The notes beneath the pieces are model-generated. The model was not told the origin of the DNA. It made no database searches and saw only the letters and a list, made by a program, of their open reading frames with translations. Below, one piece after another: positions 1 through 53,429 of a stretch of DNA of 64,000 bases (position 1 is its first letter; each line of letters begins with the position of its first letter). The DNA is taken from the NCBI RefSeq assembly GCF_040958095.1, contig NC_091219.1, forward strand, positions 22,125,037-22,189,036. The letters run 5' to 3'. This DNA is from Procambarus clarkii (taxonomy: Eukaryota > Arthropoda > Malacostraca > Decapoda > Cambaridae). The position numbers and the translations under genes are program-made.

Positions 1-163
1 TAATCACTAGTAAATAACAGTTGTGAAAAACATTAATAATAAATAAATAATATTATTATAAGTTAATATTGCAATCAATATTATTAAATAGTATCTAAAT
101 ATAGTTGTGAGGAATAGTAATAAGTTATGAATAATAATCAAAAATAATCTTCGATATTGAAGA
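1..163 (+). repeat. Left inverted arm of the satellite block
   Basis: AT-rich unique-looking arm beginning TAATCACTAGTAAATAACAG and ending at TTCGATATTGAAG, where the 20-bp array begins. Read against the reverse complement of 33,049-33,207, it matches almost base for base, with a handful of substitutions and one 3-bp length difference near base 50 (left AATAATATTATT, right AATATTATT). The first array unit beyond it is slightly irregular (GAATATTGCTCAATATTG, ~162-179). Window position 1 falls inside or at the edge of the arm. Confidence 0.85.
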
Positions 164-1299
164 ATATTGCTCAATATTGAAGAATATTCTTCAATATTGA
201 AGAATATTCTTCAATATTGAAGAATATTCTTCAATATTGAAGAATAATCTTCAATATTGAAGAATATTCTTCAATATTGAAGAATATTCTTCAATATTGA
301 AGAATAATCTTCAATATTGAAGAATATTCTTCAATATTGAAGAATATTCTTCAATATTGAAGAATATTCTTCAATATTGAAGATTATTCTTCAATATTGA
401 AGAATATTCTTCAATATTGAAGAATATTCTTCAATATTGAAGAATATTCTTCAATATTGAAGAATAATCTTCAATATTGAAGAATATTCTTCAATATTGA
501 AGAATATTCTTCAATATTGAAGAATAATCTTCAATATTGAAGATTATTCTTCAATATTGAAGAATAATCTTCAATATTGAAGAATATTCTTCAATATTGA
601 ATAATAATCTTCAATATTGAAGAATATTCTTCAATATTGAATAATAATCTTCAATATTGAAGAATAATCTTCAATATTGAAGATTATTCTTCAATATTGA
701 AGAATATTCTTCAATATTGAGGAATAATCTTCAATAATATTGAAGAATATTCTTCAATATTGAAGAATATTCTTCAATATTGAAGATTATTATTCAATAT
801 TGAAGAATATTCTTCAATATTGAAGATTATTATTCAATATTGAAGAATATTCTTCAATATTGAAGATTATTCTTCAATATTGAAGAATAATCTTCAATAT
901 TGAAGATTATTCTTCAATATTGAAGAATATTCTTCAATATTGAAGAATAATCTTCAATATTATTGAAGAATATTCTTCAATATTGAGGAATATTCTTCAA
1001 TATTATTGAAGATTATTCTTCAATATTGAAGAATATTCTTCAATATTGAAGAATATTCTTCAATATTATTGAAGATTATTCCTCAATATTGAAGAATATT
1101 CTTCAATATTGAAGAATAATCTTCAATATTGAAGATTATTCTTCAATATTGAAGAATAATCTTCAATATTGAAGAATATTCTTCAATAATATTGAAGAAT
1201 ATTCCTCAATATTGAAGAATATTCTTCAATATTATTGAAGAATAATCCTCAATATTGAAGAATATTCTTCAATAATATTGAAGAATATTATTCAATATT

Positions 1300-4200
1300 G
1301 AAGAATATTCTTCAATATTGAAGAATATTCTTCAATATTGAAGAATATTCTTCAATATTGAGGAATAATCTTCAATAATATTGAAGAATATTCTTCAATA
1401 TTGAAGAATATTCTTCAATATTGAAGATTATTATTCAATATTGAAGAATATTCTTCAATATTGAAGATTAATCTTCAATATTGAAGAATAATCTTCAATA
1501 TTGAAGATTATTCCTCAATATTGAAGAATATTCTTCAATATTGAAGAATAATCTTCAATATTGAAGATTATTCTTCAATATTGAAGAATAATCTTCAATA
1601 TTGAAGAATATTCTTCAATAATATTGAAGAATATTATTCAATATTGAAGAATATTCTTCAATATTGAAGAATATTCTTCAATATTGAAGAATATTCTTCA
1701 ATATTGAGGAATAATCTTCAATAATATTGAAGAATATTCTTCAATATTGAAGAATATTCTTCAATATTGAAGATTATTATTCAATATTGAAGAATATTCT
1801 TCAATATTGAAGATTAATCTTCAATATTGAAGATTAATCTTCAATATTGAATAATAATCTTCAATATTGAAGAATATTCTTCAATAATATTGAAGATTAA
1901 TCTTCAATATTGAATAATAATCTTCAATATTGAAGATTATTCTTCAATATTGAAGAATATTCTTCAATATTGAAGAATATTGAATAATTATTCAATATTG
2001 AAGATTATTCTTCAATATTGAAGAATAATCTTCAATATTATTGAAGAATATTCCTCAATATTGAAGATTATTCTTCAATATTGAAGAATAATCTTCAATA
2101 TTGAAGAATAATCTTCAATATTGAAGAATATTCTTCAATATTGAAGAATATTCTTCAATATTATTGAAGATTATTCTTCAATATTGAAGAATATTCTTCA
2201 ATATTGAAGAATATTATTCAATATTGAAGAATATTCTTCAATATTGAAGAATAATCTTCAATAATATTGAAGAATATTCTTCAATAATATTGAAGAATAT
2301 TCTTCAATATTGAAGAATATTCTTCAATATTGAAGAATAATCTTCAATATTGAAGATTATTCTTCAATATTGAAGATTATTCTTCAATATTGAAGAATAT
2401 TATTCAATATTGAAGAATAATCTTCAATATTGAAGATTATTCTTCAATATTGAAGAATATTCTTCAATATTGAAGATTATTCTTCAATATTGAAGAATAT
2501 TCTTCAATATTGAAGAATAATCTTCAATATTGAAGATTATTCTTCAATATTGAAGAATATTCTTCAATATTGAAGATTATTCTTCAATATTGAAGAATAT
2601 TCTTCAATATTGAAGAATAATCTTCAATATTGAAGATTATTCTTCAATATTGAAGAATATTCTTCAATATTGAAGATTATTCTTCAATATTGAAGAATAT
2701 TATTCAATATTGAAGAATAATCTTCAATATTGAAGATTATTCTTCAATATTATTGAAGAATAATCTTCAATAATATTGAAGAATATTCTTCAATATTGAA
2801 GATTATTCTTCAATATTGAAGATTATTCTTCAATATTGAAGATTGAAGAATATTCTTCAATATTGAAGATTATTCGTCAATATTGAAGAATAATCTTCAA
2901 TATTGAAGAATAATCTTCAATATTGAACAATATTCTTCAATATTATTGAAGATTATTCTTCAATATTGAAGAATATTCTTCAATATTGAAGAATAATCTT
3001 CAATAATATTGAAGAATAATCTTCAATATTGAAGAATATTCTTCAATATTGAAGAATAATCTTCAATAATATTGAAGAATAATCTTCAATATTGAAGATT
3101 ATTCTTCAATATTGAATAATATTCTTCAATATTATTGAAGATTATTCTTCAATATTGAAGAATATTCTTCAATATTGAAGAATATTCTTCAATATTGAAT
3201 AATATTCTTCAATATTGAAGAATATTCTTCAATAATATTGAAGAATATTCTTCAATATTGAAGAATATTCTTCAATATTGAAGATTAATCTTCAATATTG
3301 AAGAATAATCTTCAATATTGAGGAATATTCTTCAATATTGAGGAATATTCTTCAATATTGAAGAATAATCTTCAATAATATTGAAGAATATTCTTCAATA
3401 TTGAAGAATATTCTTCAATAATATTGAAGAATATTCTTCAATATTGAAGATTATTCTTCAATATTATTGAAGATTATTCTTCAATATTGAAGAATATTCT
3501 TCAATATTGAAGAATATTCTTCAATATTGAAGATTATTCTTCAATATTATTGAAGAATATTCTTCAATATTATTGAAGATTATTCTTCAATATTGAAGAA
3601 TATTCTTCAATATTGAAGATTATTCTTCAATATTATGAAGAATATTCTTCAATTATGAAGAATATTATTCAATATTGAAGAATATTCTTCAATATTGAAG
3701 AATATTCTTCAATATTGAATAATATTCTTCAATATTGAATAATATTCTTCAATATTGAAGAATATTCTTCAATATTGAAGAATAATCTTCAATATTGAAG
3801 ATTATTCTTCAATATTATTGAAGATTATTCTTCAATATTATTGAAGAATATTCTTCAATATTATTGAAGAATATTCTTCAATATTGAAGAATATTATTCA
3901 ATATTATTCTTCAATATTGAAGAATAATCTTCAATATTGAAGATTATTCTTCAATATTATTGAAGATTATTCTTCAATATTATTGAAGAATATTCTTCAA
4001 TATTATTGAAGAATATTCTTCAATATTATTGAAGAATATTCTTCAATATTGAAGAATATTCTCCAATATTGAAGAATATTATTCAATATTATTCTTCAAT
4101 ATTGAAGAATATTCTTCAATATTGAAGATTATTCTTCAATATTATTGAAGAATAATCTTCAATATTGAACAATATTATTCAATATTGAAGAATATTCTTC

Positions 4201-7200
4201 AATATTGAAGAATATTATTCAATATTGAAGAATATTCTCCAATATTGAAGAATATTCTTCAATATTCTTCAATATTGAAGAATATTCTTCAATATTGAAG
4301 AATAATCTTCAATAATATTGAAGAATATTATTCAATATTGAAGAATAATCTTCAATATTGAATAATAATCTTCAATATTGAAGAATATTCTTCAATATTG
4401 AAGAATATTCTTCAATATTGAAGAATATTCTTCAATATTGAAGAATAATCTTCAATATTGAGGAATATTCTTCAATATTGAAGAATAATCTTCAATAATA
4501 TTGAAGAATATTCTTCAATATTGAAGAATATTCTTCAATATTGAAGAATAATCTTCAATATTGAGGAATATTCTTCAATATTGAAGAATAATCTTCAATA
4601 ATATTGAAGAATATTATTCAATATTGAAGAATAATCTTCAATATTGAAGATTATTCTTCAATATTATTGAAGATTATTCTTCAATATTGAATAATAATCT
4701 TCAATAATATTGAAGATTAATCTTCAATATTGAATAATAATCTTCAATATTGAAGATTATTCTTCAATATTGAAGAATATTCTTCAATATTGAAGAATAA
4801 TCTTCAATAATATTGAAGAATATTCTTCAATATTGAAGAATATTATTCAATATTGAAGAATATTCTTCAATATTGAAGAATATTATTCAATATTATTCTT
4901 CAATATTGAAGAATAATCTTCAATAATGAAGATTATTCTTCAATATTATTGAAGATTATTCTTCAATATTATTGAAGAATATTCTTCAATATTGAAGAAT
5001 AATCTTCAATATTGAAGATTATTCTTCAATATTGAAGAATATTCTTCAATATTGAAGAATAATCTTCAATAATATTGAAGAATATTCTTCAATATTGAAG
5101 AATATTATTCAATATTGAAGAATATTCTTCAATATTGAAGAATATTATTCAATATTATTCTTCAATATTGAAGAATAATCTTCAATAATGAAGATTATTC
5201 TTCAATATTATTGAAGATTATTCTTCAATATTATTGAAGAATATTCTTCAATATTGAACAATATTCTTCAATATTGAAGAATATTCTTCAATATTGAAGA
5301 ATATTATTCAATATTGAAGAATATTCTCCAATATTGAAGAATATTCTTCAATATTGAAGAATATTCAATATTGAAGATAATTCTTCAATATTGAAGAATA
5401 ATCTTCAATATTGAGGAATATTCTTCAATATTGAAGAATAATCTTCAATAATATTGAAGAATATTCTTCAATATTGAAGAATATTCTTCAATATTGAAGA
5501 ATAATCTTCAATAATATTGAAGAATATTCTTCAATATTGAAGAATATTCTTCAATATTGAAGAATAATCTTCAATATTGAGGAATATTCTTCAATATTGA
5601 AGAATAATCTTCAATATTTAAGAATATTCTTCAATATTGAAGAATATTCTTCAATATTGAAGATTATTCTTCAATATTGAAGAATATTCTTCAATATTGA
5701 ATAATATTCTTCAATATTGAATAATATTCTTCAATATTGAAGAATATTCTTCAATATTGAAGATTATTCTTCAATATTGAAGAATATTATTCAATATTGA
5801 AGAATATTCTTCAATATTGAATAATAATCTTCAATATTGAAGAATAATCTTCAATATTGAAGAATATTCTTCAATATTGAAGAATATTCTTAAATATTGA
5901 AGATTATTCTTCAATATTATTGAAGAATATTCTTCAATATTGAAGAATATTCTTCAATATTGAAGAATATTCTTCAATATTGAAGATTATTCTTCAATAT
6001 TATTGAAGAATATTCTTCAATATTGAAGAATATTCTTCAATATTGAAGAATATTCTTCAATATTGAAGAATATTCTTCAATATTGAAGAATATTCTTCAA
6101 TATTGAAGAATATTCTTAAATATTGAAGATTATTCTTCAATATTATTGAAGAATATTCTTCAATATTGAATAATAATCTTCAATATTGAAGAATATTCTT
6201 CAATATTATTGAAGATTATTCTTCAATATTGAATAATATTCTTCAATATTATTGAAGATTATTCTTCAATATTGAAGAATAATCTTCAATATTGAAGATT
6301 ATTCTTCAATATTGAAGAATAATCTTCAATATTGAAGAATATTCTTCAATAATATTGAAGAATATTCCTCAATATTGAAGAATATTCTTCAATATTATTG
6401 AAGAATAATCCTCAATATTGAAGAATATTCTTCAATATTATTGAAGATTATTCTTCAATATTGAATAATATTCTTCAATATTATTGAAGATTATTCTTCA
6501 ATATTGAAGAATAATCTTCAATATTGAAGATTATTCTTCAATATTGAAGAATAATCTTCAATATTGAAGAATATTCTTCAATAATATTGAAGAATATTCC
6601 TCAATATTGAAGAATATTCTTCAATATTATTGAAGAATAATCCTCAATATTGAAGAATATTCTTCAATAATATTGAAGAATATTATTCAATATTGAAGAA
6701 TATTCTTCAATATTGAAGAATATTCTTCAATATTGAAGAATATTCTTCAATATTGAGGAATAATCTTCAATAATATTGAAGAATATTCTTCAATATTGAA
6801 GAATATTGTTCAATATTGAAGATTATTATTCAATATTGAAGAATATTCTTCAATATTGAAGATTAATCTTCAATATTGAAGAATAATCTTCAATATTGAA
6901 GATTATTCCTCAATATTGAAGAATATTCTTCAATATTGAAGAATAATCTTCAATATTGAAGATTATTCTTCAATATTGAAGAATAATCTTCAATATTGAA
7001 GAATATTCTTCAATAATATTGAAGAATATTATTCAATATTGAAGAATATTCTTCAATATTGAAGAATATTCTTCAATATTGAAGAATATTCTTCAATATT
7101 GAGGAATAATCTTCAATAATATTGAAGAATATTCTTCAATATTGAAGAATATTCTTCAATATTGAAGATTATTATTCAATATTGAAGAATATTCTTCAAT

Positions 7201-10200
7201 ATTGAAGATTAATCTTCAATATTGAAGATTAATCTTCAATATTGAATAATAATCTTCAATATTGAAGAATATTCTTCAATAATATTGAAGATTAATCTTC
7301 AATATTGAATAATAATCTTCAATATTGAAGATTATTCTTCAATATTGAAGAATATTCTTCAATATTGAAGAATATTGAATAATTATTCAATATTGAAGAT
7401 TATTCTTCAATATTGAAGAATAATCTTCAATATTATTGAAGAATATTCCTCAATATTGAAGATTATTCTTCAATATTGAAGAATAATCTTCAATATTGAA
7501 GAATATTCTTCAATATTGAAGAATATTCTTCAATATTATTGAAGATTATTCTTCAATATTGAAGAATATTCTTCAATATTGAAGAATATTATTCAATATT
7601 GAAGAATATTCTTCAATATTGAAGAATAATCTTCAATAATATTGAAGAATATTCTTCAATAATATTGAAGAATATTCTTCAATATTGAAGAATATTCTTC
7701 AATATTGAAGAATAATCTTCAATATTGAAGATTATTCTTCAATATTGAAGATTATTCTTCAATATTGAAGAATATTATTCAATATTGAAGAATAATCTTC
7801 AATATTGAAGATTATTCTTCAATATTGAAGATTATTCTTCAATATTGAAGAATATTCTTCAATATTGAAGAATAATCTTCAATATTGAAGATTATTCTTC
7901 AATATTGAAGAATATTCTTCAATATTGAAGATTATTCTTCAATATTGAAGAATATTCTTCAATATTGAAGAATAATCTTCAATATTGAAGATTATTCTTC
8001 AATATTGAAGAATATTCTTCAATATTGAAGATTATTCTTCAATATTGAAGAATATTATTCAATATTGAAGAATAATCTTCAATATTGAAGAATATTCTTC
8101 AATATTGAAGATTATTCTTCAATATTGAAGATTATTCTTCAATATTGAAGATTATTCTTCAATATTGAAGATTATTCTTCAATATTGAAGATTGAAGAAT
8201 ATTCTTCAATATTGAAGATTATTCTTCAATATTGAAGAATAATCTTCAATATTGAACAATATTCTTCAATATTATTGAAGATTATTCTTCAATATTGAAG
8301 AATATTCTTCAATATTGAAGAATAATCTTCAATATTGAAGAATATTCTTCAATATTGAAGAATAATCTTCAATAATATTGAAGAATAATCTTCAATATTG
8401 AAGATTATTCTTCAATATTGAAGAATATTCTTCAATATTGAATAATATTCTTCAATATTGAAGAATATTCTTCAATAATATTGAAGAATATTCTTCAATA
8501 TTGAAGAATATTCTTCAATATTGAAGATTAATCTTCAATATTGAAGAATAATCTTCAATATTGAGGAATATTCTTCAATATTGAGGAATATTCTTCAATA
8601 TTGAAGAATAATCTTCAATAATATTGAAGAATATTCTTCAATATTGAAGATTATTCTTCAATATTATTGAAGATTATTCTTCAATATTATTGAAGAATAT
8701 TCTTCAATATTATTGAAGATTATTCTTCAATATTGAAGAATATTCTTCAATATTGAAGATTATTCTTCAATATTATTGAAGATTATTCTTCAATATTGAA
8801 GAATATTCTTCAATATTGAAGATTATTCTTCAATATTATGAAGAATATTCTTCAATTCTGAATAATATTCTTCAATATTGAAGAATAATCTTCAATATTG
8901 AAGATTATTCTTCAATATTATTGAAGATTATTCTTCAATATTATTGAAGAATATTCTTCAATATTATTGAAGAATATTATTCAATATTGAAGAATATTAT
9001 TCAATATTATTCTTCAATATTGAAGAATAATCTTCAATATTGAAGATTATTCTTCAATATTATTGAAGATTATTCTTCAATATTATTGAAGAATATTCTT
9101 CAATATTATTGAAGAATATTCTTCAATATTATTGAAGAATATTCTTCAATATTGAAGAATATTCTCCAATATTGAAGAATATTATTCAATATTATTCTTC
9201 AATATTGAAGAATATTCTTCAATATTGAAGATTATTCTTCAATATTATTGAAGAATATTCTTCAATATTGAACAATATTATTCAATATTGAAGAATATTC
9301 TTCAATATTGAAGAATATTATTCAATATTGAAGAATATTCTCCAATATTGAAGAATATTCTTCAATATTGAAGAATATTCTTCAATATTGAAGAATAATC
9401 TTCAATATTGAAGATTATTCTTCAATATTGAATAATATTCTTCAATATTATTGAAGATTATTCTTCAATATTGAAGAATATTCTTCAATATTGAAGAATA
9501 TTCTTCAATATTGAATAATATTCTTCAATATTGAAGAATATTCTTCAATAATATTGAAGAATATTCTTCAATATTGAAGAATATTCTTCAATATTGAAGA
9601 TTAATCTTCAATATTGAAGAATAATCTTCAATATTGAGGAATATTCTTCAATATTGAGGAATATTCTTCAATATTGAAGAATAATCTTCAATAATATTGA
9701 AGAATATTCTTCAATATTGAAGAATATTCTTCAATAATATTGAAGAATATTCTTCAATATTGAAGATTATTCTTCAATATTATTGAAGATTATTCTTCAA
9801 TATTGAAGAATATTCTTCAATATTGAAGATTATTCTTCAATATTATTGAAGAATATTCTTCAATATTATTGAAGATTATTCTTCAATATTGAAGAATATT
9901 CTTCAATATTGAAGATTATTCTTCAATATTATGAAGAATATTCTTCAATTATGAAGAATATTCTTCAATTATGAAGAATATTATTCAATATTGAAGAATA
10001 TTCTTCAATATTGAAGAATATTCTTCAATATTGAATAATATTCTTCAATATTGAAGAATAATCTTCAATATTGAAGATTATTCTTCAATATTATTGAAGA
10101 TTATTCTTCAATATTATTGAAGAATATTCTTCAATATTATTGAAGAATATTCTTCAATATTGAAGAATATTATTCAATATTATTCTTCAATATTGAAGAA

Positions 10201-11400
10201 TAATCTTCAATATTGAAGATTATTCTTCAATATTATTGAAGATTATTCTTCAATATTATTGAAGAATATTCTTCAATATTATTGAAGAATATTCTTCAAT
10301 ATTATTGAAGAATATTCTTCAATATTGAAGAATATTCTCCAATATTGAAGAATATTATTCAATATTATTCTTCAATATTGAAGAATATTCTTCAATATTG
10401 AAGATTATTCTTCAATATTATTGAAGAATATTCTTCAATATTGAACAATATTATTCAATATTGAAGAATATTCTTCAATATTGAAGAATATTATTCAATA
10501 TTGAAGAATATTCTCCAATATTGAAGAATATTCTTCAATATTCTTCAATATTGAAGAATATTCTTCAATATTGAAGAATAATCTTCAATAATATTGAAGA
10601 ATATTATTCAATATTGAAGAATAATCTTCAATATTGAATAATAATCTTCAATATTGAAGAATAATCTTCAATATTGAATAATAATCTTCAATATTGAAGA
10701 ATATTCTTCAATATTGAAGAATATTCTTCAATATTGAAGAATATTCTTCAATATTGAAGAATAATCTTCAATATTGAGGAATATTCTTCAATATTGAAGA
10801 ATAATCTTCAATAATATTGAAGAATATTCTTCAATATTGAAGAATAATCTTCAATAATATTGAAGAATATTCTTCAATATTGAAGAATATTCTTCAATAT
10901 TGAAGAATAATCTTCAATATTGAGGAATATTCTTCAATATTGAAGAATAATCTTCAATAATATTGAAGAATATTATTCAATATTGAAGAATAATCTTCAA
11001 TATTGAAGATTATTCTTCAATATTGAAGAATATTATTCAATATTATTCTTCAATATTGAAGAATAATCTTCAATATTGAAGATTATTCTTCAATATTATT
11101 GAAGATTATTCTTCAATATTATTGAAGAATATTCTTCAATATTGAAGAATAATCTTCAATATTGAAGATTATTCTTCAATATTATTGAAGATTATTCTTC
11201 AATATTATTGAAGATTATTCTTCAATATTGAACAATATTCTTCAATATTGAAGAATATTCTTCAATATTGAAGAATATTATTCAATATTGAAGAATATTC
11301 TCCAATATTGAAGAATATTCTTCAATATTGAAGAATAATCTTCAATATTGAGGAATATTCTTCAATATTGAAGAATAATCTTCAATATTTAAGAATATTC
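1300..11400. repeat. Internal duplication of the array at a lag of about 5.4-5.8 kb
   Basis: Rare variants recur in the same order at this lag. TGAATAATTATTCAA is at 1,981 and 7,376 (5,395 bp apart). GATTGAAGAAT is at 2,841 and 8,190 (5,349 bp). AATATTTAAG is at 5,613 and 11,384 (5,771 bp). All recurrences are in the same orientation. The drifting lag indicates later insertions and deletions of whole 20-bp units. Boundaries are approximate, because only landmark variants were compared. Confidence 0.7.
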
Positions 11401-14400: not shown

Positions 14401-17400
14401 TATTGAAGAATATTCTTCAATATTGAATAATATTCTTCAATATTGAAGAATATTCTTCAATATTGAAGAATATTCTTCAATATTGAAGAATATTCTTCAA
14501 TATTGAAGATTAATCTTCAATATTGAATAATAATCTTCAATATTGAAGAATATTCTTCAATATTATTGAAGATTATTCTTCAATATTATTGAAGATTATT
14601 CTTCAATATTGAAGAATATTCTTCAATATTGAAGATTAATCTTCAATATTGAAGAATAATCTTCAATATTGAAGAATATTCTTCAATATTATTGAAGATT
14701 ATTCTTCAATATTGAAGAATAATCTTCAATAATATTGAAGAATATTCTTCAATATTGAAGAATAATCTTCAATAATATTGAAGAATATTCTTCAATATTG
14801 AAGAATATTCGTCAATATTGAAGATTATTCTTCAATATTGAAGAATAATCTTCAATATTGAGGAATATTCTTCAATAATATTGAAGATTATTCTTCAATA
14901 TTGAAGAATAATCTTCAATATTGAATAATTAATCAATATTCTTCAATATTGAAGAATATTCTTCAATATTGAAGAATAATCTTCAATATTGAAGATTATT
15001 ATTCAATATTGAAGATTATTCTTCAATATTGAAGATTATTCTTCAATATTGAAGAATATTATTCAATATTGAAGATTAATCTTCAATATTGAAGATTATT
15101 CTTCAATATTATTGAAGAATATTCTTCAATATTGGAGAATATTCTTCAATATTGAATAATATTCTTCAATATTGAAGAATATTCTTCAATATTGAAGAAT
15201 ATTGTTCAATATTGAAGAATATTCTTCAATAATATTGAAGAATAATCTTCAATAATATTGAAGAATAATCTTCAATATTGAAGATTATTCTTCAATATTG
15301 AAGAATATTCTTCAATAATATTGAAGAATAATCTTCAATAATATTGAAGAATAATCTTCAATATTGAAGATTATTCTTCAATATTGAAGAATAATATTGA
15401 ATAATATTCTTCAATATTGAAGAATAATCTTCAATATTGAAGATTATTCTTCAATATTATTGAAGATTATTCTTCAATATTATTGAAGAATATTCTTCAA
15501 TATTGAAGAATATTATTCAATATTGAAGAATATTCTCCAATATTGAAGAATATTCTTCAATATTGAAGAATATTCAATATTGAAGAATATTCTTCAATAT
15601 TGAAGAATAATCTTCAATATTGAGGAATATTCTTCAATATTGAAGAATAATCTTCAATAATATTGAAGAATATTCTTCAATATTGAAGAATATTCTTCAA
15701 TATTGAAGAATAATCTTCAATATTGAAGAATATTCTTCAATATTGAAGAATATTCTTCAATATTGAAGATTATTCTTCAATATTGAAGAATATTCTTCAA
15801 TATTGAATAATATTCTTCAATATTGAATAATATTCTTCAATATTGAAGAATATTCTTCAATATTGAAGATTATTCTTCAATATTATTGAAGAATATTCTT
15901 CAATATTGAAGAATATTCTTCAATATTGAAGAATATTCTTCAATATTGAAGATTATTCTTCAATATTATTGAAGAATATTCTTCAATATTGAATAATATT
16001 CTTCAATATTGAATAATATTCTTCAATATTGAAGAATATTCTTCAATATTGAAGATTATTCTTCAATATTGAAGAATATTATTCAATATTGAAGAATAAT
16101 CTTCAATATTGAAGATTATTCTTCAATATTATTGAAGAATATTCTTCAATATTGAAGATTATTCTTCAATATTGAAGAATATTCTTCAATATTGAAGAAT
16201 AATCTTCAATATTGAGGAATATTCTTCAATATTGAATAATATTCTTCAATATTATTGAAGATTATTCTTCAATATTGAAGATTATTCTTCAATATTGAAG
16301 AATATTATTCAATATTGAAGATTATTCTTCAATATTGAAGAATATTATTCAATATTGAAGAATAATCTTCAATATTGAAGATTATTCTTCAATATTATTG
16401 AAGAATATTCTTCAATATTGAAGATTATTCTTCAATATTGAAGAATATTATTAAATATTGAAGAATAATCTTCAATATTGAAGATTATTCTTCAATATTG
16501 AAGAATATTCTTCAATATTGAAGATTATTCTTCAATATTGAAGAATAATCTTCAATATTGAAGATTATTCTTCAATATTGAAGAATATTCTTCAATATTG
16601 AAGATTATTCTTCAATATTGAAGATTATTCTTCAATATTGAAGAATATTCTTCAATATTGAAGATTATTCTTCAATATTGAAGAATATTATTCAATATTG
16701 AAGAATAATCTTCAATATTGAAGATTATTCTTCAATATTGAAGAATATTATTCAATATTGAAGAATATTCTTCAATATTGAAGAATATTCTTCAATATTG
16801 AATAATATTCTTCAATATTGAATAATATTCTTCAATATTGAAGAATATTCTTCAATATTGAAGAATAATCTTCAATAATATTGAAGAATATTATTCAATA
16901 TTGAAGAATAATCTTCAATATTGAATAATAATCTTCAATATTGAAGAATATTCTTCAATATTGAAGAATATTCTTCAATATTGAAGAATATTCTTCAATA
17001 TTGAAGAATAATCTTCAATATTGAGGAATATTCTTCAATATTGAAGAATAATCTTCAATAATATTGAAGAATATTCTTCAATATTGAAGAATATTCTTCA
17101 ATATTGAAGAATAATCTTCAATATTGAGGAATATTCTTCAATATTGAAGAATAATCTTCAATAATATTGAAGAATATTATTCAATATTGAAGAATAATCT
17201 TCAATATTGAAGATTATTCTTCAATATTATTGAAGATTATTCTTCAATATTGAATAATAATCTTCAATAATATTGAAGATTAATCTTCAATATTGAATAA
17301 TAATCTTCAATATTGAAGATTATTCTTCAATATTGAAGAATATTCTTCAATATTGAAGAATAATCTTCAATAATATTGAAGAATATTCTTCAATATTGAA

Positions 17401-19550: not shown

Positions 19551-22500
19551 TGAATAATTATTCAATATTGAAGATTATTCTTCAATATTGAAGAATAATC
19601 TTCAATATTATTGAAGAATATTCCTCAATATTGAAGATTATTCTTCAATATTGAAGAATAATCTTCAATATTGAAGAATAATCTTCAATATTGAATAATT
19701 ATTCAATATTCTTCAATATTGAAGAATATTCTTCAATATTGAAGAATAATCTTCAATATTGAAGATTATTCTTCAATATTGAAGAATATTCTTCAATATT
19801 GAAGATTATTCTTCAATATTGAAGAATATTCTTCAATATTGAAGAATAATCTTCAATATTGAAGATTATTCTTCAATATTGAAGAATATTCTTCAATATT
19901 GAAGATTATTCTTCAATATTGAAGAATATTCTTCAATATTGAAGAATAATCTTCAATATTGAAGATTATTCTTCAATATTGAAGAATATTCTTCAATATT
20001 GAAGATTATTCTTCAATATTGAAGAATATTCTTCAATATTGAAGATTATTCTTCAATATTGAAGATTATTCTTCAATATTGAAGATTATTCTTCAATATT
20101 GAAGATTATTCTTCAATATTGAAGATTGAAGAATATTCTTCAATATTGAAGATTATTCTTCAATATTGAAGAATAATCTTCAATATTGAACAATATTCTT
20201 CAATATTATTGAAGATTATTCTTCAATATTGAAGAATATTCTTCAATATTGAAGAATAATCTTCAATATTGAAGAATATTCTTCAATATTGAAGAATAGT
20301 CTTCAATAATATTGAAGAATAATCTTCAATATTGAAGATTATTCTTCAATATTGAATAATATTCTTCAATATTATTGAAGATTATTCTTCAATATTGAAG
20401 AATATTCTTCAATATTGAAGAATATTCTTCAATATTGAATAATATTCTTCAATATTGAAGAATATTCTTCAATAATATTGAAGAATATTCTTCAATATTG
20501 AAGAATATTCTTCAATATTGAAGATTAATCTTCAATATTGAAGAATAATCTTCAATATTGAGGAATATTCTTCAATATTGAGGAATATTCTTCAATATTG
20601 AAGAATAATCTTCAATAATATTGAAGAATATTCTTCAATATTGAAGATTATTCTTCAATATTATTGAAGATTATTCTTCAATATTATTGAAGAATATTCT
20701 TCAATATTATTGAAGATTATTCTTCAATATTGAAGAATATTCTTCAATATTGAAGATTATTCTTCAATATTATTGAAGATTATTCTTCAATATTGAAGAA
20801 TATTCTTCAATATTGAAGATTATTCTTCAATATTATGAAGAATATTCTTCAATTATGAAGAATATTATTCAATATTGAAGAATATTCTTCAATATTGAAG
20901 AATATTCTTCAATATTGAATAATATTCTTCAATATTGAAGAATAATCTTCAATATTGAAGATTATTCTTCAATATTATTGAAGATTATTCTTCAATATTA
21001 TTGAAGAATATTCTTCAATATTATTGAAGAATATTCTTCAATATTGAAGAATATTATTCAATATTATTCTTCAATATTGAAGAATAATCTTCAATATTGA
21101 AGATTATTCTTCAATATTATTGAAGATTATTCTTCAATATTATTGAAGAATATTCTTCAATATTATTGAAGAATATTCTTCAATATTATTGAAGAATATT
21201 CTTCAATATTGAAGAATATTCTCCAATATTGAAGAATATTATTCAATATTATTCTTCAATATTGAAGAATATTCTTCAATATTGAAGATTATTCTTCAAT
21301 ATTATTGAAGAATATTCTTCAATATTGAACAATATTATTCAATATTGAAGAATATTTTTCAATATTGAAGAATATTATTCAATATTGAAGAATATTCTCC
21401 AATATTGAAGAATATTCTTCAATATTCTTCAATATTGAAGAATATTCTTCAATATTGAAGAATAATCTTCAATATTGAAGATTATTCTTCAATATTGAAT
21501 AATATTCTTCAATATTATTGAAGATTATTCTTCAATATTGAAGAATATTCTTCAATATTGAAGAATATTCTTCAATATTGAATAATATTCTTCAATATTG
21601 AAGAATATTCTTCAATAATATTGAAGAATATTCTTCAATATTGAAGAATATTCTTCAATATTGAAGATTAATCTTCAATATTGAAGAATAATCTTCAATA
21701 TTGAGGAATATTCTTCAATATTGAGGAATATTCTTCAATATTGAAGAATATTCTTCAATATTGAAGAATATTCTTCAATATTGAATAATATTCTTCAATA
21801 TTGAAGAATATTCTTCAATAATATTGAAGAATATTCTTCAATATTGAAGAATATTCTTCAATATTGAAGATTATTATTCAATATTGAAGAATATTCTTCA
21901 ATATTGAAGATTAATCTTCAATATTGAAGATTAATCTTCAATATTGAATATTAATCTTCAATATTGAAGAATATTCTTCAATATTGAAGAATATTCTTCA
22001 ATAATATTGAAGAATATTCTTCAATATTGAAGATTATTCTTCAATATTATTGAAGATTATTCTTCAATATTGAAGAATATTCTTCAATATTGAAGATTAT
22101 TCTTCAATATTATTGAAGAATATTCTTCAATATTATTGAAGATTATTCTTCAATATTGAAGAATATTCTTCAATATTGAAGATTATTCTTCAATATTATT
22201 GAAGATTATTCTTCAATATTGAAGAATATTCTTCAATATTGAAGATTATTCTTCAATATTATGAAGAATATTCTTCAATTATGAAGAATATTCTTCAATT
22301 ATGAAGAATATTATTCAATATTGAAGAATATTCTTCAATATTGAAGAATATTCTTCAATATTGAATAATATTCTTCAATATTGAAGAATAATCTTCAATA
22401 TTGAAGATTATTCTTCAATATTATTGAAGATTATTCTTCAATATTATTGAAGAATATTCTTCAATATTATTGAAGAATATTCTTCAATATTATTGAAGAA

Positions 22501-25500
22501 TATTCTTCAATATTATTGAAGAATATTCTTCAATATTGAAGAATATTCTCCAATATTGAAGAATATTATTCAATATTATTCTTCAATATTGAAGAATATT
22601 CTTCAATATTGAAGATTATTCTTCAATATTATTGAAGAATATTCTTCAATATTGAACAATATTATTCAATATTGAAGAATATTCTTCAATATTGAAGAAT
22701 ATTATTCAATATTGAAGAATATTCTCCAATATTGAAGAATATTCTTCAATATTGAAGAATATTCTTCAATATTGAAGAATAATCTTCAATAATATTGAAG
22801 AATATTATTCAATATTGAAGAATAATCTTCAATATTGAATAATAATCTTCAATATTGAAGAATATTCTTCAATATTGAAGAATATTCTTCAATATTGAAG
22901 AATATTCTTCAATATTGAAGAATAATCTTCAATATTGAGGAATATTCTTCAATATTGAAGAATAATCTTCAATAATATTGAAGAATATTCTTCAATATTG
23001 AAGAATATTCTTCAATATTGAAGAATAATCTTCAATATTGAGGAATATTCTTCAATATTGAAGAATAATCTTCAATAATATTGAAGAATATTATTCAATA
23101 TTGAAGAATAATCTTCAATATTGAAGATTATTCTTCAATATTGAAGAATATTATTCAATATTATTCTTCAATATTGAAGAATAATCTTCAATATTGAAGA
23201 TTATTCTTCAATATTATTGAAGATTATTCTTCAATATTATTGAAGAATATTCTTCAATATTGAAGAATAATCTTCAATATTGAAGATTATTCTTCAATAT
23301 TATTGAAGATTATTCTTCAATATTATTGAAGATTATTCTTCAATATTGAACAATATTCTTCAATATTGAAGAATATTCTTCAATATTGAAGAATATTATT
23401 CAATATTGAAGAATATTCTCCAATATTGAAGAATATTCTTCAATATTGAAGAATAATCTTCAATATTGAGGAATATTCTTCAATATTGAAGAATAATCTT
23501 CAATATTTAAGAATATTCTTCAATATTGAAGAATATTCTTCAATATTGAAGATTATTCTTCAATATTGAAGAATATTCTTCAATATTGAATAATATTCTT
23601 CAATATTGAATAATATTCTTCAATATTGAAGAATATTCTTCAATATTGAAGATTATTCTTCAATATTGAAGAATATTATTCAATATTGAAGAATATTCTT
23701 CAATATTGAATAATAATCTTCAATATTGAAGAATAATCTTCAATATTGAAGAATATTCTTAAATATTGAAGATTATTCTTCAATATTATTGAAGAATATT
23801 CTTCAATATTGAAGAATATTCTTCAATATTGAAGATTATTCTTCAATATTATTGAAGAATATTCTTCAATATTGAAGAATATTCTTCAATATTGAAGAAT
23901 ATTCTTCAATATTGAAGAATATTCTTCAATATTGAAGAATATTCTTCAATATTGAAGAATATTCTTCAATATTGAAGATTATTCTTCAATATTATTGAAG
24001 AATATTCTTCAATATTGAAGAATATTCTTCAATATTGAAGAATATTCTTCAATATTGAAGAATATTCTTCAATATTGAAGAATATTCTTCAATATTGAAG
24101 AATATTATTCAATATTGAAGATTATTCTTCAATATTGAAGAATAATCTTCAATAATATTGAAGAATAATCTTCAATATTGAAGATTAATCTTCAATATTG
24201 AATAATAATCTTCAATATTGAAGAATATTCTTCAATATTATTGAAGAATATTCTTCAATATTATTGAAGAATATTCTTCAATATTGAAGATTAATCTTCA
24301 ATATTGAATAATAATCTTCAATATTGAATAATATTCTTCAATATTGAATAATATTCTTCAATATTGAAGAATATTCTTCAATATTGAATAATATTCTTCA
24401 ATATTGAAGAATATTCTTCAATAATATTGAAGAATATTCTTCAATATTGAAGAATATTCTTCAATATTGAAGATTAATCTTCAATATTGAAGAATAATCT
24501 TCAATATTGAAGATTATTCTTCAATATTATTGAAGAATATTCTTCAATATTGAAGAATATTCTTCAATATTGAAGATTATTCTTCAATATTGAAGAATAT
24601 TCTTCAATATTGAAGAATAATCTTCAATATTGAGGAATATTCTTCAATATTGAATAATATTCTTCAATATTATTGAAGATTATTCTTCAATATTGAAGAT
24701 TATTCTTCAATATTGAAGAATATTATTCAATATTGAAGAATAATCTTCAATATTGAAGATTATTCTTCAATATTATTGAAGAATATTCTTCAATATTGAA
24801 GAATATTCTTCAATATTGAAGATTATTCTTCAATATTGAAGAATATTATTAAATATTGAAGAATAATCTTCAATATTGAAGATTATTCTTCAATATTGAA
24901 GAATATTCTTCAATATTGAAGATTATTCTTCAATATTGAAGAATATTCTTCAATATTGAAGAATAATCTTCAATATTGAAGATTATTCTTCAATATTGAA
25001 GAATATTCTTCAATATTGAACATTATTCTTCAATATTGAAGAATATTCTTCAATATTGAAGAATAATCTTCAATATTGAAGATTATTCTTCAATATTGAA
25101 GAATATTCTTCAATATTGAAGATTATTCTTCAATATTGAAGAATATTATTCAATATTGAAGAATAATCTTCAATATTGAAGATTATTCTTCAATATTATT
25201 GAAGAATAATCTTCAATAATATTGAAGAATATTCTTCAATATTGAAGATTATTCTTCAATATTGAAGATTATTCTTCAATATTGAAGATTATTATTCAAT
25301 ATTGAAGATTAATCTTCAATATTATTGAAGAATATTCTTCAATATTGAAGAATATTCTTCAATATTGAAGAATATTCTTCAATATTGAAGATTAATCTTC
25401 AATATTGAAGAATAATCTTCAATATTGAAGATTATTCCTCAATATTGAAGAATATTCTTCAATATTGAAGAATAATCTTCAATATTGAAGATTATTCTTC

Positions 25501-28500
25501 AATATTGAAGAATAATCTTCAATATTGAAGAATATTCTTCAATAATATTGAAGAATATTATTCAATATTGAAGAATATTCTTCAATATTGAAGAATATTC
25601 TTCAATATTGAAGAATATTCTTCAATATTGAGGAATAATCTTCAATAATATTGAAGAATATTCTTCAATATTGAAGAATATTCTTCAATATTGAAGATTA
25701 TTATTCAATATTGAAGAATATTCTTCAATATTGAAGATTAATCTTCAATATTGAAGATTAATCTTCAATATTGAATATTAATCTTCAATATTGAAGAATA
25801 TTCTTCAATAATATTGAAGATTAATCTTCAATATTGAATAATAATCTTCAATATTGAAGATTATTCTTCAATATTGAAGAATAATCTTCAATATTGAAGA
25901 ATATTCTTCAATAATATTGAAGAATATTATTCAATATTGAAGAATATTCTTCAATATTGAAGAATATTCTTCAATATTGAGGAATAATCTTCAATAATAT
26001 TGAAGAATATTCTTCAATATTGAAGAATATTCTTCAATATTGAAGATTATTATTCAATATTGAAGAATATTCTTCAATATTGAAGATTAATCTTCAATAT
26101 TGAAGATTATTCTTCAATATTGAAGATTATTCTTCAATATTGAAGAATAATCTTCAATATTATTGAAGAATATTCCTCAATATTGAAGATTATTCTTCAA
26201 TATTGAAGAATAATCTTCAATATTGAAGAATAATCTTCAATATTGAAGAATAATCTTCAATATTGAAGAATATTCTTCAATATTGAAGAATATTCTTCAA
26301 TATTATTGAAGATTATTCTTCAATATTGAAGAATATTCTTCAATATTGAAGAATATTATTCAATATTGAAGAATATTCTTCAATATTGAAGAATAATCTT
26401 CAATAATATTGAAGAATATTCTTCAATAATATTGAAGAATATTCTTCAATATTGAAGAATATTCTTCAATATTGAAGAATAATCTTCAATAATATTGAAG
26501 AATAATCTTCAATATTGAAGAATATTCTTCAATATTGAAGAATAATCTTCAATAATATTGAAGAATAATCTTCAATAATATTGAAGAATAATCTTCAATA
26601 ATATTGAAGAATATTCTTCAATATTGAATAATATTCTTCAATATTGAAGAATATTCTTCAATATTGAAGAATATTCTTCAATATTGAAGAATATTCTTCA
26701 ATATTGAAGATTAATCTTCAATATTGAATAATAATCTTCAATATTGAAGAATATTCTTCAATATTATTGAAGATTATTCTTCAATATTATTGAAGATTAT
26801 TCTTCAATATTGAAGAATATTCTTCAATATTGAAGATTAATCTTCAATATTGAAGAATAATCTTCAATATTGAAGAATATTCTTCAATATTATTGAAGAT
26901 TATTCTTCAATATTGAAGAATAATCTTCAATAATATTGAAGAATATTCTTCAATATTGAAGAATAATCTTCAATAATATTGAAGAATATTCTTCAATATT
27001 GAAGAATATTCTTCAATATTGAAGATTATTCTTCAATATTGAAGAATAATCTTCAATATTGAGGAATATTCTTCAATAATATTGAAGATTATTCTTCAAT
27101 ATTGAAGAATAATCTTCAATATTGAATAATTAATCAATATTCTTCAATATTGAAGAATATTCTTCAATATTGAAGAATAATCTTCAATATTGAAGATTAT
27201 TATTCAATATTGAAGATTATTCTTCAATATTGAAGATTATTCTTCAATATTGAAGAATATTATTCAATATTGAAGATTAATCTTCAATATTGAAGATTAT
27301 TCTTCAATATTATTGAAGAATATTCTTCAATATTGGAGAATATTCTTCAATATTGAATAATATTCTTCAATATTGAAGAATATTCTTCAATATTGAAGAA
27401 TATTGTTCAATATTGAAGAATATTCTTCAATAATATTGAAGAATAATCTTCAATATTGAAGATTATTCTTCAATATTGAAGAATATTCTTCAATAATATT
27501 GAAGAATAATCTTCAATAATATTGAAGAATAATCTTCAATATTGAAGATTATTCTTCAATATTGAAGAATAATATTGAATAATATTCTTCAATATTGAAG
27601 AATAATCTTCAATATTGAAGATTATTCTTCAATATTATTGAAGATTATTCTTCAATATTATTGAAGAATATTCTTCAATATTGAAGAATATTATTCAATA
27701 TTGAAGAATATTCTCCAATATTGAAGAATATTCTTCAATATTGAAGAATATTCAATATTGAAGAATATTCTTCAATATTGAAGAATAATCTTCAATATTG
27801 AGGAATATTCTTCAATATTGAAGAATAATCTTCAATAATATTGAAGAATATTCTTCAATATTGAAGAATATTCTTCAATATTGAAGAATAATCTTCAATA
27901 ATATTGAAGAATATTCTTCAATATTGAAGAATATTCTTCAATATTGAAGAATAATCTTCAATATTGAGGAATATTCTTCAATATTGAAGAATAATCTTCA
28001 ATATTTAAGAATATTCTTCAATATTGAAGAATATTCTTCAATATTGAAGATTATTCTTCAATATTGAAGAATATTCTTCAATATTGAATAATATTCTTCA
28101 ATATTGAATAATATTCTTCAATATTGAAGAATATTCTTCAATATTGAAGATTATTCTTCAATATTATTGAAGAATATTCTTCAATATTGAAGAATATTCT
28201 TCAATATTGAAGAATATTCTTCAATATTGAAGATTATTCTTCAATATTATTGAAGAATATTCTTCAATATTGAATAATATTCTTCAATATTGAATAATAT
28301 TCTTCAATATTGAAGAATATTCTTCAATATTGAAGATTATTCTTCAATATTGAAGAATATTATTCAATATTGAAGAATAATCTTCAATATTGAAGATTAT
28401 TCTTCAATATTATTGAAGAATATTCTTCAATATTGAAGATTATTCTTCAATATTGAAGAATATTCTTCAATATTGAAGAATAATCTTCAATATTGAGGAA

Positions 28501-30922
28501 TATTCTTCAATATTGAATAATATTCTTCAATATTATTGAAGATTATTCTTCAATATTGAAGATTATTCTTCAATATTGAAGAATATTATTCAATATTGAA
28601 GATTATTCTTCAATATTGAAGAATATTATTCAATATTGAAGAATAATCTTCAATATTGAAGATTATTCTTCAATATTATTGAAGAATATTCTTCAATATT
28701 GAAGATTATTCTTCAATATTGAAGAATATTATTAAATATTGAAGAATAATCTTCAATATTGAAGATTATTCTTCAATATTGAAGAATATTCTTCAATATT
28801 GAAGATTATTCTTCAATATTGAAGAATAATCTTCAATATTGAAGATTATTCTTCAATATTGAAGAATATTCTTCAATATTGAAGATTATTCTTCAATATT
28901 GAAGAATATTCTTCAATATTGAAGAATAATCTTCAATATTGAAGATTATTCTTCAATATTGAAGAATATTCTTCAATATTGAAGATTATTCTTCAATATT
29001 GAAGAATATTATTCAATATTGAAGAATAATCTTCAATATTGAAGATTATTCTTCAATATTATTGAAGAATAATCTTCAATAATATTGAAGAATATTCTTC
29101 AATATTGAAGATTATTCTTCAATATTGAAGATTATTCTTCAATATTGAAGATTGAAGAATATTCTTCAATATTGAAGATTATTCTTCAATATTGAAGAAT
29201 AATCTTCAATATTGAAGATTATTCTTCAATATTGAATAATATTCTTCAATATTATTGAAGATTATTCTTCAATATTGAAGAATATTCTTCAATATTGAAG
29301 AATATTCTTCAATATTGAATAATATTCTTCAATATTGAAGAATATTCTTCAATAATATTGAAGAATATTCTTCAATATTGAAGAATATTCTTCAATATTG
29401 AAGATTAATCTTCAATATTGAAGAATAATCTTCAATATTGAGGAATATTCTTCAATATTGAGGAATATTCTTCAATATTGAAGAATAATCTTCAATAATA
29501 TTGAAGAATATTCTTCAATATTGAAGAATATTCTTCAATAATATTGAAGAATATTCTTCAATATTGAAGATTATTCTTCAATATTATTGAAGATTATTCT
29601 TCAATATTGAAGAATATTCTTCAATATTGAAGATTATTCTTCAATATTATTGAAGAATATTCTTCAATATTATTGAAGATTATTCTTCAATATTGAAGAA
29701 TATTCTTCAATATTGAAGATTATTCTTCAATATTATTGAAGATTATTCTTCAATATTGAAGAATATTCTTCAATATTGAAGATTATTCTTCAATATTATG
29801 AAGAATATTCTTCAATTATGAAGAATATTATTCAATATTGAAGAATATTCTTCAATATTGAAGAATATTCTTCAATATTGAATAATATTCTTCAATATTG
29901 AATAATATTCTTCAATATTGAAGAATATTCTTCAATATTGAAGAATAATCTTCAATATTGAAGATTATTCTTCAATATTATTGAAGATTATTCTTCAATA
30001 TTATTGAAGAATATTTTCAATATTATTGAAGAATATTCTTCAATATTGAAGAATATTATTCAATATTATTCTTCAATATTGAAGAATAATCTTCAATATT
30101 GAAGATTATTCTTCAATATTATTGAAGATTATTCTTCAATATTATTGAAGAATATTCTTCAATATTGAAGAATATTCTCCAATATTGAAGAATATTATTC
30201 AATATTATTCTTCAATATTGAAGAATATTCTTCAATATTGAAGATTATTCTTCAATATTATTGAAGAATATTCTTCAATATTGAACAATATTATTCAATA
30301 TTGAAGAATATTCTTCAATATTCTTCAATATTGAAGAATATTCTTCAATATTGAAGAATAATCTTCAATAATATTGAAGAATATTATTCAATATTGAAGA
30401 ATAATCTTCAATATTGAATAATAATCTTCAATATTGAAGAATATTCTTCAATATTGAAGAATATTCTTCAATATTGAAGAATAATCTTCAATATTGAGGA
30501 ATATTCTTCAATATTGAAGAATAATCTTCAATAATATTGAAGAATATTCTTCAATATTGAAGAATATTCTTCAATATTGAAGAATAATCTTCAATATTGA
30601 GGAATATTCTTCAATATTGAAGAATAATCTTCAATAATATTGAAGAATATTATTCAATATTGAAGAATAATCTTCAATATTGAAGATTATTCTTCAATAT
30701 TATTGAAGATTATTCTTCAATATTGAATAATAATCTTCAATAATATTGAAGATTAATCTTCAATATTGAATAATAATCTTCAATATTGAAGATTATTCTT
30801 CAATATTGAAGAATATTATTCAATATTGAAGAATAATCTTCAATAATATTGAAGAATATTCTTCAATAATATTGAAGAATATTCTTCAATATTGAAGAAT
30901 ATTCTTCAATATTGAAGAATAT
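19551..30922. repeat. Higher-order repeat of about 12.2 kb, copy 2
   Basis: Counterparts of the landmarks in the preceding copy are at 27,123 (lag 12,201), 27,332 (lag 12,201), about 27,402 (lag about 12,202), 24,842 (lag 12,141) and 28,725 (lag 12,281). The next TGAATAATTATTCAA is at 30,923, 11,372 bp after 19,551, so this copy has lost some units near its end. The remainder, 30,923-33,060, is a partial further copy rich in TTCTCCAATATTG units. Confidence 0.72.
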
Positions 30923-33048
30923 TGAATAATTATTCAATATTGAAGATTATTCTTCAATATTGAAGAATATTCCTCAATATTGAAGATTATTCTTCAATAT
31001 TGAAGAATATTCTTCAATATTGAAGAATATTCTTCAATATTGAAGATTATTCTTCAATATTGAAGATTATTCTTCAATATTATTGAAGAATATTCTTCAA
31101 TATTGAATAATAATCTTCAATATTGAAGAATATTCTTCAATATTATTGAAGATTATTCTTCAATATTGAAGAATATTCTTCAATATTGAATAATATTCTT
31201 CAATATTGAATAATATTCTTCAATATTGAAGAATATTCTTCAATATTGAAGATTATTCTTCAATATTGAAGAATATTATTCAATATTGAAGAATAATCTT
31301 CAATATTGAAGATTATTCTTCAATATTGAAGAATATTCTTCAATATTGAAGATTATTCTTCAATATTGAAGAATATTCTTCAATATTGAAGATTATTCTT
31401 CAATATTGAAGAATATTCTTCAATATTGAAGATTATTCTTCAATATTGAAGAATATTCTTCAATATTGAAGATTATTCTTCAATATTGAAGAATATTATT
31501 CAATATTGAAGAATAATCTTCAATATTGAAGATTATTCTTCAATATTATTGAAGAATATTCTTCAATATTGAAGAATAATCTTCAATAATATGGAAGAAT
31601 ATTCTTCAATATTGAAGATTATTCTTCAATATTATTGAAGATTATTCTTCAATATTATTGAAGATTATTCTTCAATATTGAAGAATATTCTTCAATATTG
31701 AAGATTATTCTTCAATATTATTGAAGATTATTCTTCAATATTGAAGAATATTCTTCAATATTGAAGATTATTCTTCAATATTATTGAAGAATATTCTTCA
31801 ATATTGAACAATATTCTTCAATATTGAAGAATATTCTTCAATATTGAAGAATATTATTCAATATTGAAGAATATTCTCCAATATTGAAGAATATTATTCA
31901 ATATTGAAGAATATTCTTCAATATTGAAGAATATTCAATATTGAAGAATATTCTTCAATATTGAAGAATAATCTTCAATAATATTGAAGAATATTATTCA
32001 ATATTGAAGAATAATCTTCAATATTGAAGATTATTCTTCAATATTATTGAAGATTATTCTTCAATATTATTGAAGAATATTATTCAATATTGAACAATAT
32101 TATTCAATATTGAAGAATATTCTTCAATATTGAAGAATATTATTCAATATTGAAGAATATTCTCCAATATTGAAGAATATTATTCAATATTGAAGAATAT
32201 TCTTCAATATTGAAGAATATTCAATATTGAAGAATATTCTTCAATATTGAAGAATAATCTTCAATAATATTGAAGAATATTCTTCAATATTGAAGAATAT
32301 TCTTCAATAATATTGAAGAATATTCTTCAATATTGAAGAATATTCTTCAATATTGAAGAATATTATTCAATATTGAAGAATATTCTCCAATATTGAAGAA
32401 TATTATTCAATATTGAAGAATATTCTTCAATATTGAAGAATATTCAATATTGAAGAATATTCTTCAATATTGAAGAATATTCTTCAATATTGAAGAATAA
32501 TCTTCAATAATATTGAAGAATATTCTTCAATATTGAAGAATATTCTTCAATAATATTGAAGAATATTCTTCAATATTGAAGAATAATCTTCAATATTGAA
32601 GAATAATCTTCAATATTGAAGATTATTCTTCAATATTATTGAAGATTATTCTTCAATATTATTGAAGATTATTCTTCAATATTGAAGAATATTCTTCAAT
32701 ATTGAAGAATATTCTTCAATATTATTGAAGATTATTCTTCAATATTGAAGAATAATCTTCAATAATATTGAAGAATATTATTCAATATTGAAGAATAATC
32801 TTCAATATTGAAGATTATTCTTCAATATTATTGAAGATTATTCTTCAATATTGAAGAATAATCTTCAATATTGAATAATAATATTCAATATTGAAGAATA
32901 TTCTTCAATATTGAAGAATATTCTTCAATATTGAAGAATAATCTTCAATAATATTGAAGAATATTATTCAATATTGAAGAATAATCTTCAATATTGAAGA
33001 TTATTCTTCAATATTATTGAAGATTATTCTTCAATATTGAAGAATATT

Positions 33049-33207
33049 CTTCAATATCGAAGATTATTATTGATTATTATTCATAACTTATTACTATTCC
33101 TCAGAACTATATTTAGATACTATTTAATAATATTGATTGCAATATTAAGTTATAATAATATTTATTTATTATTAATGTTTTTCACTACTGTTATTTACTA
33201 GTCATTA
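33049..33207 (-). repeat. Right inverted arm of the satellite block
   Basis: Begins at TCAATATCGAAG, the reverse complement of the left-arm junction, and runs to CTAGTCATTA at 33,198-33,207. Reverse-complemented, it aligns with bases 1-163 through CTAGTAAATAACAG, GCAATCAATATTATTAAATA and GAGGAATAGTAATAAG. Beyond 33,207 the sequence (CTTTTTATATTTTAC) cannot be compared, because the left flank is outside the window. Confidence 0.85.
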
Positions 33208-38838: not shown

Positions 38839-38967
38839 CAGGAACGATCTTGCCCGCTAGCTTCCAGATACGCTTCCAGATCTGGGGCACAGGAGTTTCC
38901 GATGTATTTGTTCAGACAAGATGCCCAACATTAACGTTTAGCTGTACGGATGGCCGTACGGATGGCC

Positions 38968-39970: not shown

Positions 39971-40005
39971 AGCACGTTAAAGAATATCAGGGTCGGGATC
40001 AGGGG

Positions 40006-43795: not shown

Positions 43796-43804
43796 GAACA
43801 TTTT

Positions 43805-44825: not shown

Positions 44826-45128
44826 TAGTATTCAATAATATTGTTCAATATTGATATTCTTATTATTCAATAGTATTGAATAATATACAATATTATTGAA
44901 TATTAATATTATTCATTAATATCGATTATTATTCATTAAGTCAATAAAATTAAATATTCAATAACATTTATTATTCAAAATTGCCCAATACTATTCAAGA
45001 ATATTAAATATGGATCAATATTATTAATAAATATTTATTAATATTGATTATTATTCAATATTCTACATTTTTGCCTTCAATTTGGTCTATATTTTATTCA
45101 ATATCATTTAATGATCTACAATAATGAA
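44826..45128. repeat. AATATT-rich degenerate block, unit A
   Basis: Irregular TTCAATAATATTG, TTCAATATTGA, TTATTATTCAATA and TATTGAATAATAT words make this region resemble a scrambled version of the 20-bp satellite at 1-33 kb, but without the GAAG/CTTC part and without fixed periodicity. B carries the counterpart at 53,430-53,750 with extensive rearrangement. Confidence 0.6.
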
Positions 45129-52455: not shown

Positions 52456-52466
52456 TGGAAGATTTT

Positions 52467-52805: not shown

Positions 52806-53429
52806 TTTTCTTAAATATTTAATATTATTCTTCACTCAATATAAATGCAAATGTTCATTTGTGCATAACCGCTATTCAACCTAACTTCTTTACCGATTGC
52901 CTTCATTTTTGACACAACGTTGCCTTCCAATAGACGCGTCTTTTTTATATACCTACTATACAGATGGCACACCTGTGACAGGTAAAACTATGCTTTCTTC
53001 AAAACACCACCATCTCTTCCATGTCAAAGCAACACTCATGTTATACTAAATATGTTAAAATTACATTTCAATGTTTCTGATTGCAATGATAATTTGATTT
53101 TTCATACATTCTGATTTATATCCATTTGGATTTCATTATTTGGTGTCATTTCCCTTGGAATTGAGCTGTGTTGTTTACCATCCCGATCATTTCATGAATA
53201 TATTTGTTTTCCCATATTTTCATGACTTTTTCACTGAAATTCTTATATTTCAATGATGGAAACATCACATCACTTCATATACCCAATTTTCTCATGGGAA
53301 CATCACACCATTTGGGAACGCATCGGACGAGGGCGTGGGGAATGGTTGGGAGGCCCAGGAGACGGTGAGGGGGAAGGAAGACAAGGAACGTTGCTGTGGC
53401 TCACCAACGCATTGCCAGGTACTGTTAGT

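Follow-up and report, generated by a model that had tools for sequence, protein, structure and literature searches.

How a satellite can be born from the amplified core of an inverted-repeat element has been sketched in broad terms by work on flies and frogs. In Tetris, a foldback element of Drosophila virilis, tandem repeats inside the element gave rise to satellite arrays in which a 220-bp repeat reaches 66 copies, more than the few units of which an earlier note on the present DNA knew, and fibre-FISH (fluorescence in situ hybridization) showed long arrays between two flanking terminal inverted repeat (TIR) domains (PMC4079207). For satellites borne by miniature inverted-repeat transposable elements (MITEs), the model given in review is that the ends of the element decay after expansion (PMC12628747, PMC9659126). 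Crayfish are rich in short-unit satellites, such as the 21-bp PlSAT1-21 (PMC7859515, PMC13130569). Here we describe a satellite of the crayfish Procambarus clarkii located in 64,000 nucleotides of contig NC_091219.1 (assembly GCF_040958095.1, positions 22,125,037 to 22,189,036), a stretch called the window throughout. About 33 kb of self-complementary 20-bp units lie there between two arms that are reverse complements of each other. The parts of the locus, in window coordinates, are:

1..148, strand +: left arm, a reverse-complement match to the right arm, 84% A+T, its outer end cut by the window edge
149..162, strand +: left junction unit, CTTCGATATTGAAG, which carries the TTCGATATT variant
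149..33062, no strand assigned: tandem array of the self-complementary 20-bp unit AATATTCTTCAATATTGAAG; its higher-order repeats are direct, with shifts of about 12.2 kb and 6 kb
33049..33062, strand -: right junction unit, the mirror of the left one
33063..33207, strand -: right arm, matching the left one as its reverse complement, at least 145 bp long

Tandem Repeats Finder reported a single array (143-33068, period 20, 88% matches) of 1,605.3 copies, in agreement with the more than 1,600 units given in the earlier note; such a long head-to-tail succession of one 20-bp unit is what defines a satellite or minisatellite. The unit reads GAAG-AATATT-CTTC-AATATT, that is, it is its own reverse complement, and a dyad centre therefore occurs about every 10 bases. 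The array is 81% A+T and strand-balanced (3,114 C against 3,119 G). Its folding potential is considerable: as DNA, the 200 nt from 150 to 349 are predicted to form a single long hairpin of -87.5 kcal/mol (shuffle mean -21.9, z -21.7), and as RNA a 300-nt piece reaches -171.3 against -55.0 for shuffles. The half-unit is on the average slightly longer than ten bases (10.29 bp) because of 303 insertions of three bases, AATATTATT or AATAATATT, all in the CTTC-to-GAAG spacer. In 147-bp windows the spectrum of WW dinucleotides (W = A or T) peaks at 10.22 bp, and the nucleosomal helical repeat is close to this value. The insertions themselves are not regularly spaced, as a nucleosome-phasing role might have led one to expect (coefficient of variation of the gaps 0.921, versus 0.886 when shuffled).

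When positions 1-161 are aligned with the reverse complement of 33050-33207, each arm being extended by the unit next to it, 153 identities, five mismatches and one 3-bp gap are found. The arms are thus about 97% identical by substitution, and together with the first unit they form a mirror pair about 3% diverged. The arm-versus-arm score of 255 is far above the 47 reached at best by 500 first-order Markov shuffles; with the single array, this establishes that a 33-kb satellite enclosed by inverted arms, as proposed in the earlier note, is real. That note was also right in seeing the same variant at both passages from array to arm: TTCGATATT and its complement AATATCGAA each occur once within 1-33207, solely at the two array ends. 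Because the two junctions share a variant that is unique in the array, the mirrored block comprises the arm plus about one unit. The arms are indeed reverse complements, but the length of 160 bp given to them earlier is only a lower limit: the match extends through window base 1, where 19 of the 20 outermost bases agree, and they are therefore at least 145-148 bp long. All five arm mismatches are of the complementary type (C/G or A/T), which has a chance of 0.02 given the rate in an 8.7-kb tandem duplication of the flank (see below).

No further arm copy was recognizable by blastn in 33208-64000 when shuffled arms served as controls: of 200 shuffled arms, 36 and 24 reached the best scores of the two arms under strict settings, and 47 and 13 did so under lenient ones. 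The lenient matches (63-69% identity over 90-150 bp, E down to 7e-8), which among the matches listed fell mainly on two AT-rich islands, are accordingly at chance level. Nor was the idea that the arms are degenerate satellite supported, since scores as high were reached by 31 of 500 shuffles and, among 300 palindromic controls, by 19 for one arm and 12 for the other. A 33-nt arm pattern had no exact match in the viral_contigs set, and window 1-170 no blastn match in the phages set, neither of which is expected to hold animal DNA; a 34-nt satellite pattern had no exact match in viral_contigs or genome_contigs.

The internal order of the array is mainly direct. Among exact repeats of at least 150 bp, 222 pairs are direct and 14 inverted, and two of the inverted pairs are local self-palindromes. 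The longest exact direct copy is 1,029 bp, and shifts around 12.2 kb and 5.4-6.3 kb are frequent, with others such as 17.6 kb. The same picture emerges when the array is cut into 54 blocks of 600 bp (the final 515 bp being left out): 52 of them have a direct partner closer than any inverted one, with a mean divergence of 3.2% for direct and 7.0% for inverted partners. The two exceptions, at 149 (the leftmost block) and 16349, have inverted best partners at 5.3%, near 16244 and 184, respectively. Some blocks have identical direct copies; being unchanged over 600 bp, these are probably younger than the split of the arms, which differ by 5 in 158. Near the ends, direct partners are weak: the last two blocks at the left edge and the last four at the right have theirs at 5.8-7.2%, which mainly internal growth would predict; a few inner blocks are at 5.7-6.2%. 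We detected no switch of unit orientation among 1,105 oriented variants (652 versus 453; permutation p of 0.15 for the best switch point). The earlier description of the satellite as palindromic thus applies to the unit and not to the array as a whole, and we rejected a global palindrome of two mirrored half-arrays, given the mostly direct order and the failure to detect an orientation switch.

Compared inversely, the two array edges are at nearly all offsets no closer than randomly placed segments: 10.0% versus 9.8% over the first 100 bp, 9.5% versus 8.8% over 200 bp and 10.0% versus 8.8% over 500 bp. In 16 such edge comparisons, the smallest shares of random placements that matched as well were 0.06 and 0.07, and the next was 0.26. 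Clear mirror symmetry is therefore limited to the arms and about one unit, and growth of the interior is mainly direct-oriented and took place in part after the arms had diverged.

The best reading of these data, which we hold tentatively, is that the core of a short AT-rich inverted-repeat element of the MITE or foldback type expanded. The starting point would be an element whose two arms, of at least 145-148 bp, lay in opposite orientation on either side of a small core built of self-complementary 20-bp units. This core would have grown to 33 kb through direct duplication, presumably by slippage at the start, followed by gene conversion or unequal exchange of blocks of kilobase size; the arms and the unit next to each would have remained in single copy, as fossils of the element. 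The arms would then correspond to the TIRs of a mobile element. Core expansion is favoured because arms about 97% alike give way sharply to array edges that match at background level, and because the higher-order repeats are direct; the arrangement is also that of Tetris, with tandem repeats enclosed by inverted flanking domains. The amplified core postulated in the earlier note fits both the sharp change and the direct order, and the mobile nature of the element it started from would be a further step. The array itself may be selfish, its growth aided by hairpin-prone DNA that stalls replication, and no cellular function is to be expected of it. A bolder version, in which array and arms move, or until recently moved, together as a 33-kb element whose fully self-complementary satellite cargo has a dyad at about every helical turn, spreading a fold-capable array as one piece (and a long double-stranded RNA if transcribed), seems to us highly doubtful.

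Several observations weigh against core expansion. Within the window, whose edge cuts the left arm, we saw neither a target-site duplication nor an empty site, and neither a second copy of the arms nor a transposase. As the match of the arms runs to base 1, they could far exceed the length of a TIR, and they have no clear likeness to the unit (31 of 500 shuffles scoring as high). The interior is not purely direct: the leftmost block is closer to its inverted partner near 16244 (5.3%) than to its direct one (5.8%). Two of the inverse edge comparisons rank low among random placements, those of a 500-bp block 1.5 kb inward (lowest 6%) and of a 300-bp block 600 bp inward (lowest 7%). Lastly, rapid turnover, in any satellite, would likewise erase mirror symmetry near the edges.

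The main rival is a fold-back inverted duplication, which explains the arms about as well and which we regard as possible though on the unlikely side. A break or stalled fork in an existing palindromic array would have let the strand snap back, so that the array edge and its flank were copied in inverted orientation (flank-array-array'-flank'), and later direct homogenization would have erased the inner mirror. No transposon is required, and the substrate is suitable: a dyad symmetry centre lies at every 10 bp or so, the 200 nt that were folded form one hairpin, and foldback inversions in yeast begin at single-stranded DNA hairpins, for which a stem of 4 bp can be enough (PMC7467729). That two 600-bp blocks, the leftmost included, are closer to an inverted than to a direct partner also speaks for it. 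However, it predicts array edges mirrored for some distance inward and an initial change of unit orientation, and neither is clearly seen, although later turnover can excuse both.

The arms might otherwise be the visible part of a large segmental inverted duplication that has the array at its centre and continues far to the left of the window, which we consider improbable. It is in line with the match of 19 of the 20 outermost bases at the window edge, since the fall of that edge on an exact biological end would be a coincidence, unless the contig ends there, and with the 8.7-kb tandem segmental duplication of the flank. Very little weight can be given to the idea that staggered breaks allowed the array to invert, the stretch between the nicks being duplicated in inverted orientation at either end. 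This is an established mechanism, and the inversion of a self-complementary array would otherwise be almost invisible, but the duplicated block must by chance have taken in the first array unit for the junctions to match. An artefact of sequencing or assembly, for instance a read folded back on itself or a wrongly joined repeat, is also very unlikely, in spite of the difficulty of sequencing hairpin-rich DNA and of the odd substitution spectrum between duplicated copies in the window, because a folded-back molecule yields identical arms whereas these differ by five substitutions and a 3-bp gap, and because the array has a long-range direct order and not that of a random collapse.

The flank to the right of the array contains two AT-rich islands:

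44829..45062, no strand assigned: AT-rich self-complementary island with a 10-bp periodicity, a possible distant cousin of the satellite
53425..53647, no strand assigned: island paralogous to the first, within the 8.7-kb tandem duplication; aligned with its own reverse complement it shows 70.7% identity over 232 columns

They are paralogues within the duplication and share a 10-bp AATATT rhythm. Their likeness to the satellite was not reached by any of 500 shuffles for each island, and by one of 300 palindromic controls, which proved to be the satellite repeat in another phase; few of these first control sequences, however, contained AATATT spacers. When the spacers were kept fixed and all 256 four-letter variants compared, GAAG/CTTC ranked 33rd-34th for the island at 44829-45062 and 38th-39th for that at 53425-53647, and the best-scoring variant was GAAT/ATTC, above the GAAG/CTTC of the satellite. 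With the spacers fixed the likeness is thus not specific to the unit, and we do not claim that the islands are short copies of the element.

The tandem segmental duplication pairs 40809-48672 with 49493-57336, at 93-95% identity in the two longest pieces and 85% in a third. Complementary transversions dominate its 233 differences (106 C/G or A/T, 61 transitions, 66 other), and 45 of the 110 differences with five identical bases on each side are C/G. The transition/transversion ratio is about 0.3, far below the usual value. Transitions are few as well in a third, more diverged copy (57.5-59.7 kb), where they make up 108 of 360 and 79 of 265 differences over all contexts, but C/G changes do not dominate there. 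The odd spectrum may come either from an assembly error or from a real mutation bias. Strand asymmetry is marked in the flank (35001-61000): the GC skew is -0.44 at 57-59 kb and -0.13 to -0.33 at 41-57 kb, and the AT skew +0.30 to +0.43 at 35-41 kb. A perfect (AT) run of 69.5 copies (54283-54421) is listed in one duplication copy only, in a break between aligned pieces. Degenerate repeats of the GTACA/AGTAC pentamer type (42842-43089, 43592-43779, 51528-51696, 52254-52432 and 59410-59728) recur in the duplicated segments.

Eight flank open reading frames (ORFs) were compared with Pfam, which gave weak retroelement-type matches below the curated cut-offs (RVT_1, Exo_endo_phos and GIY-YIG) and one at chance level. 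The RVT_1 and endonuclease matches mark non-LTR (long terminal repeat) retrotransposon remnants at 37942-39976 (strand -), where the reverse transcriptase ORF resembles P. clarkii proteins (63-70% over 58-68% of the length; four matches in all); the other two named matches are from the spider Trichonephila clavipes (40-42%). The GIY-YIG match, also below cut-off, is in the ORF at 60095-60781 (strand +), which is related to an uncharacterized P. clarkii protein (84% over half its length; six matches, one named). The third ORF, at 63328-63801 (strand -), is likewise a relative of an uncharacterized P. clarkii protein (79% over half its length; two matches, one named). The matches of these last two ORFs include proteins with PF26215, and we take both to be possible remnants of Penelope-like retroelements. 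Among the matches that bear an organism name, those from P. clarkii are the best for all three ORFs; these transposon remnants by themselves would make the host probably a decapod crustacean, perhaps a crayfish. Rfam at its gathering threshold and ARAGORN gave no matches in 33000-64000.

The birth of a satellite is seldom visible, because its edges do not last; at this locus a matching arm is preserved at either edge, which makes models of birth testable, and the arms, if unique, provide primers around the complete array. Among the open-licence papers listed, judged by title and start of abstract, none describes this unit or a 20-bp self-complementary satellite between inverted arms, and the 14- and 20-nt unit strings did not occur in the open-licence texts searched. 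The main texts of two papers on crayfish minisatellites make no mention of palindromic, inverted or 20 bp repeats (PMC7859515, PMC13130569). Large arrays with hairpin potential are known from the macro-dyad satellites of Tribolium madens (PMC13081366), but these switch orientation, whereas in the crayfish array no switch was detected (p 0.15). Galileo, a foldback-like element, is of the same kind in that AT-rich segments and direct tandem repeats occur in its long inverted repeats (PMC4168063); its repeats, however, belong to the TIRs, whereas the crayfish arms lie outside one central array. In Xstir and miDNA4 of Xenopus, tandem repeats in a MITE expand to a satellite; in the model given in review the ends then decay, while those of the crayfish array are still about 97% alike (PMC12628747, PMC9659126). 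The nearest precedent is the Tetris/TIR-220 satellite, which likewise has inverted flanking domains around tandem repeats expanded to kb-size arrays (PMC4079207). As described there, its unit is of about 220 bp, in at most 66 copies, with target-site duplications of 8-10 bp; here the unit is self-complementary and of 20 bp, in about 1,605 copies, and the flank beyond the left arm is outside the view. If the array did arise within an element, the range of transposon-core expansion would come to include a very short self-complementary unit, at a copy number well above that reported for Tetris.

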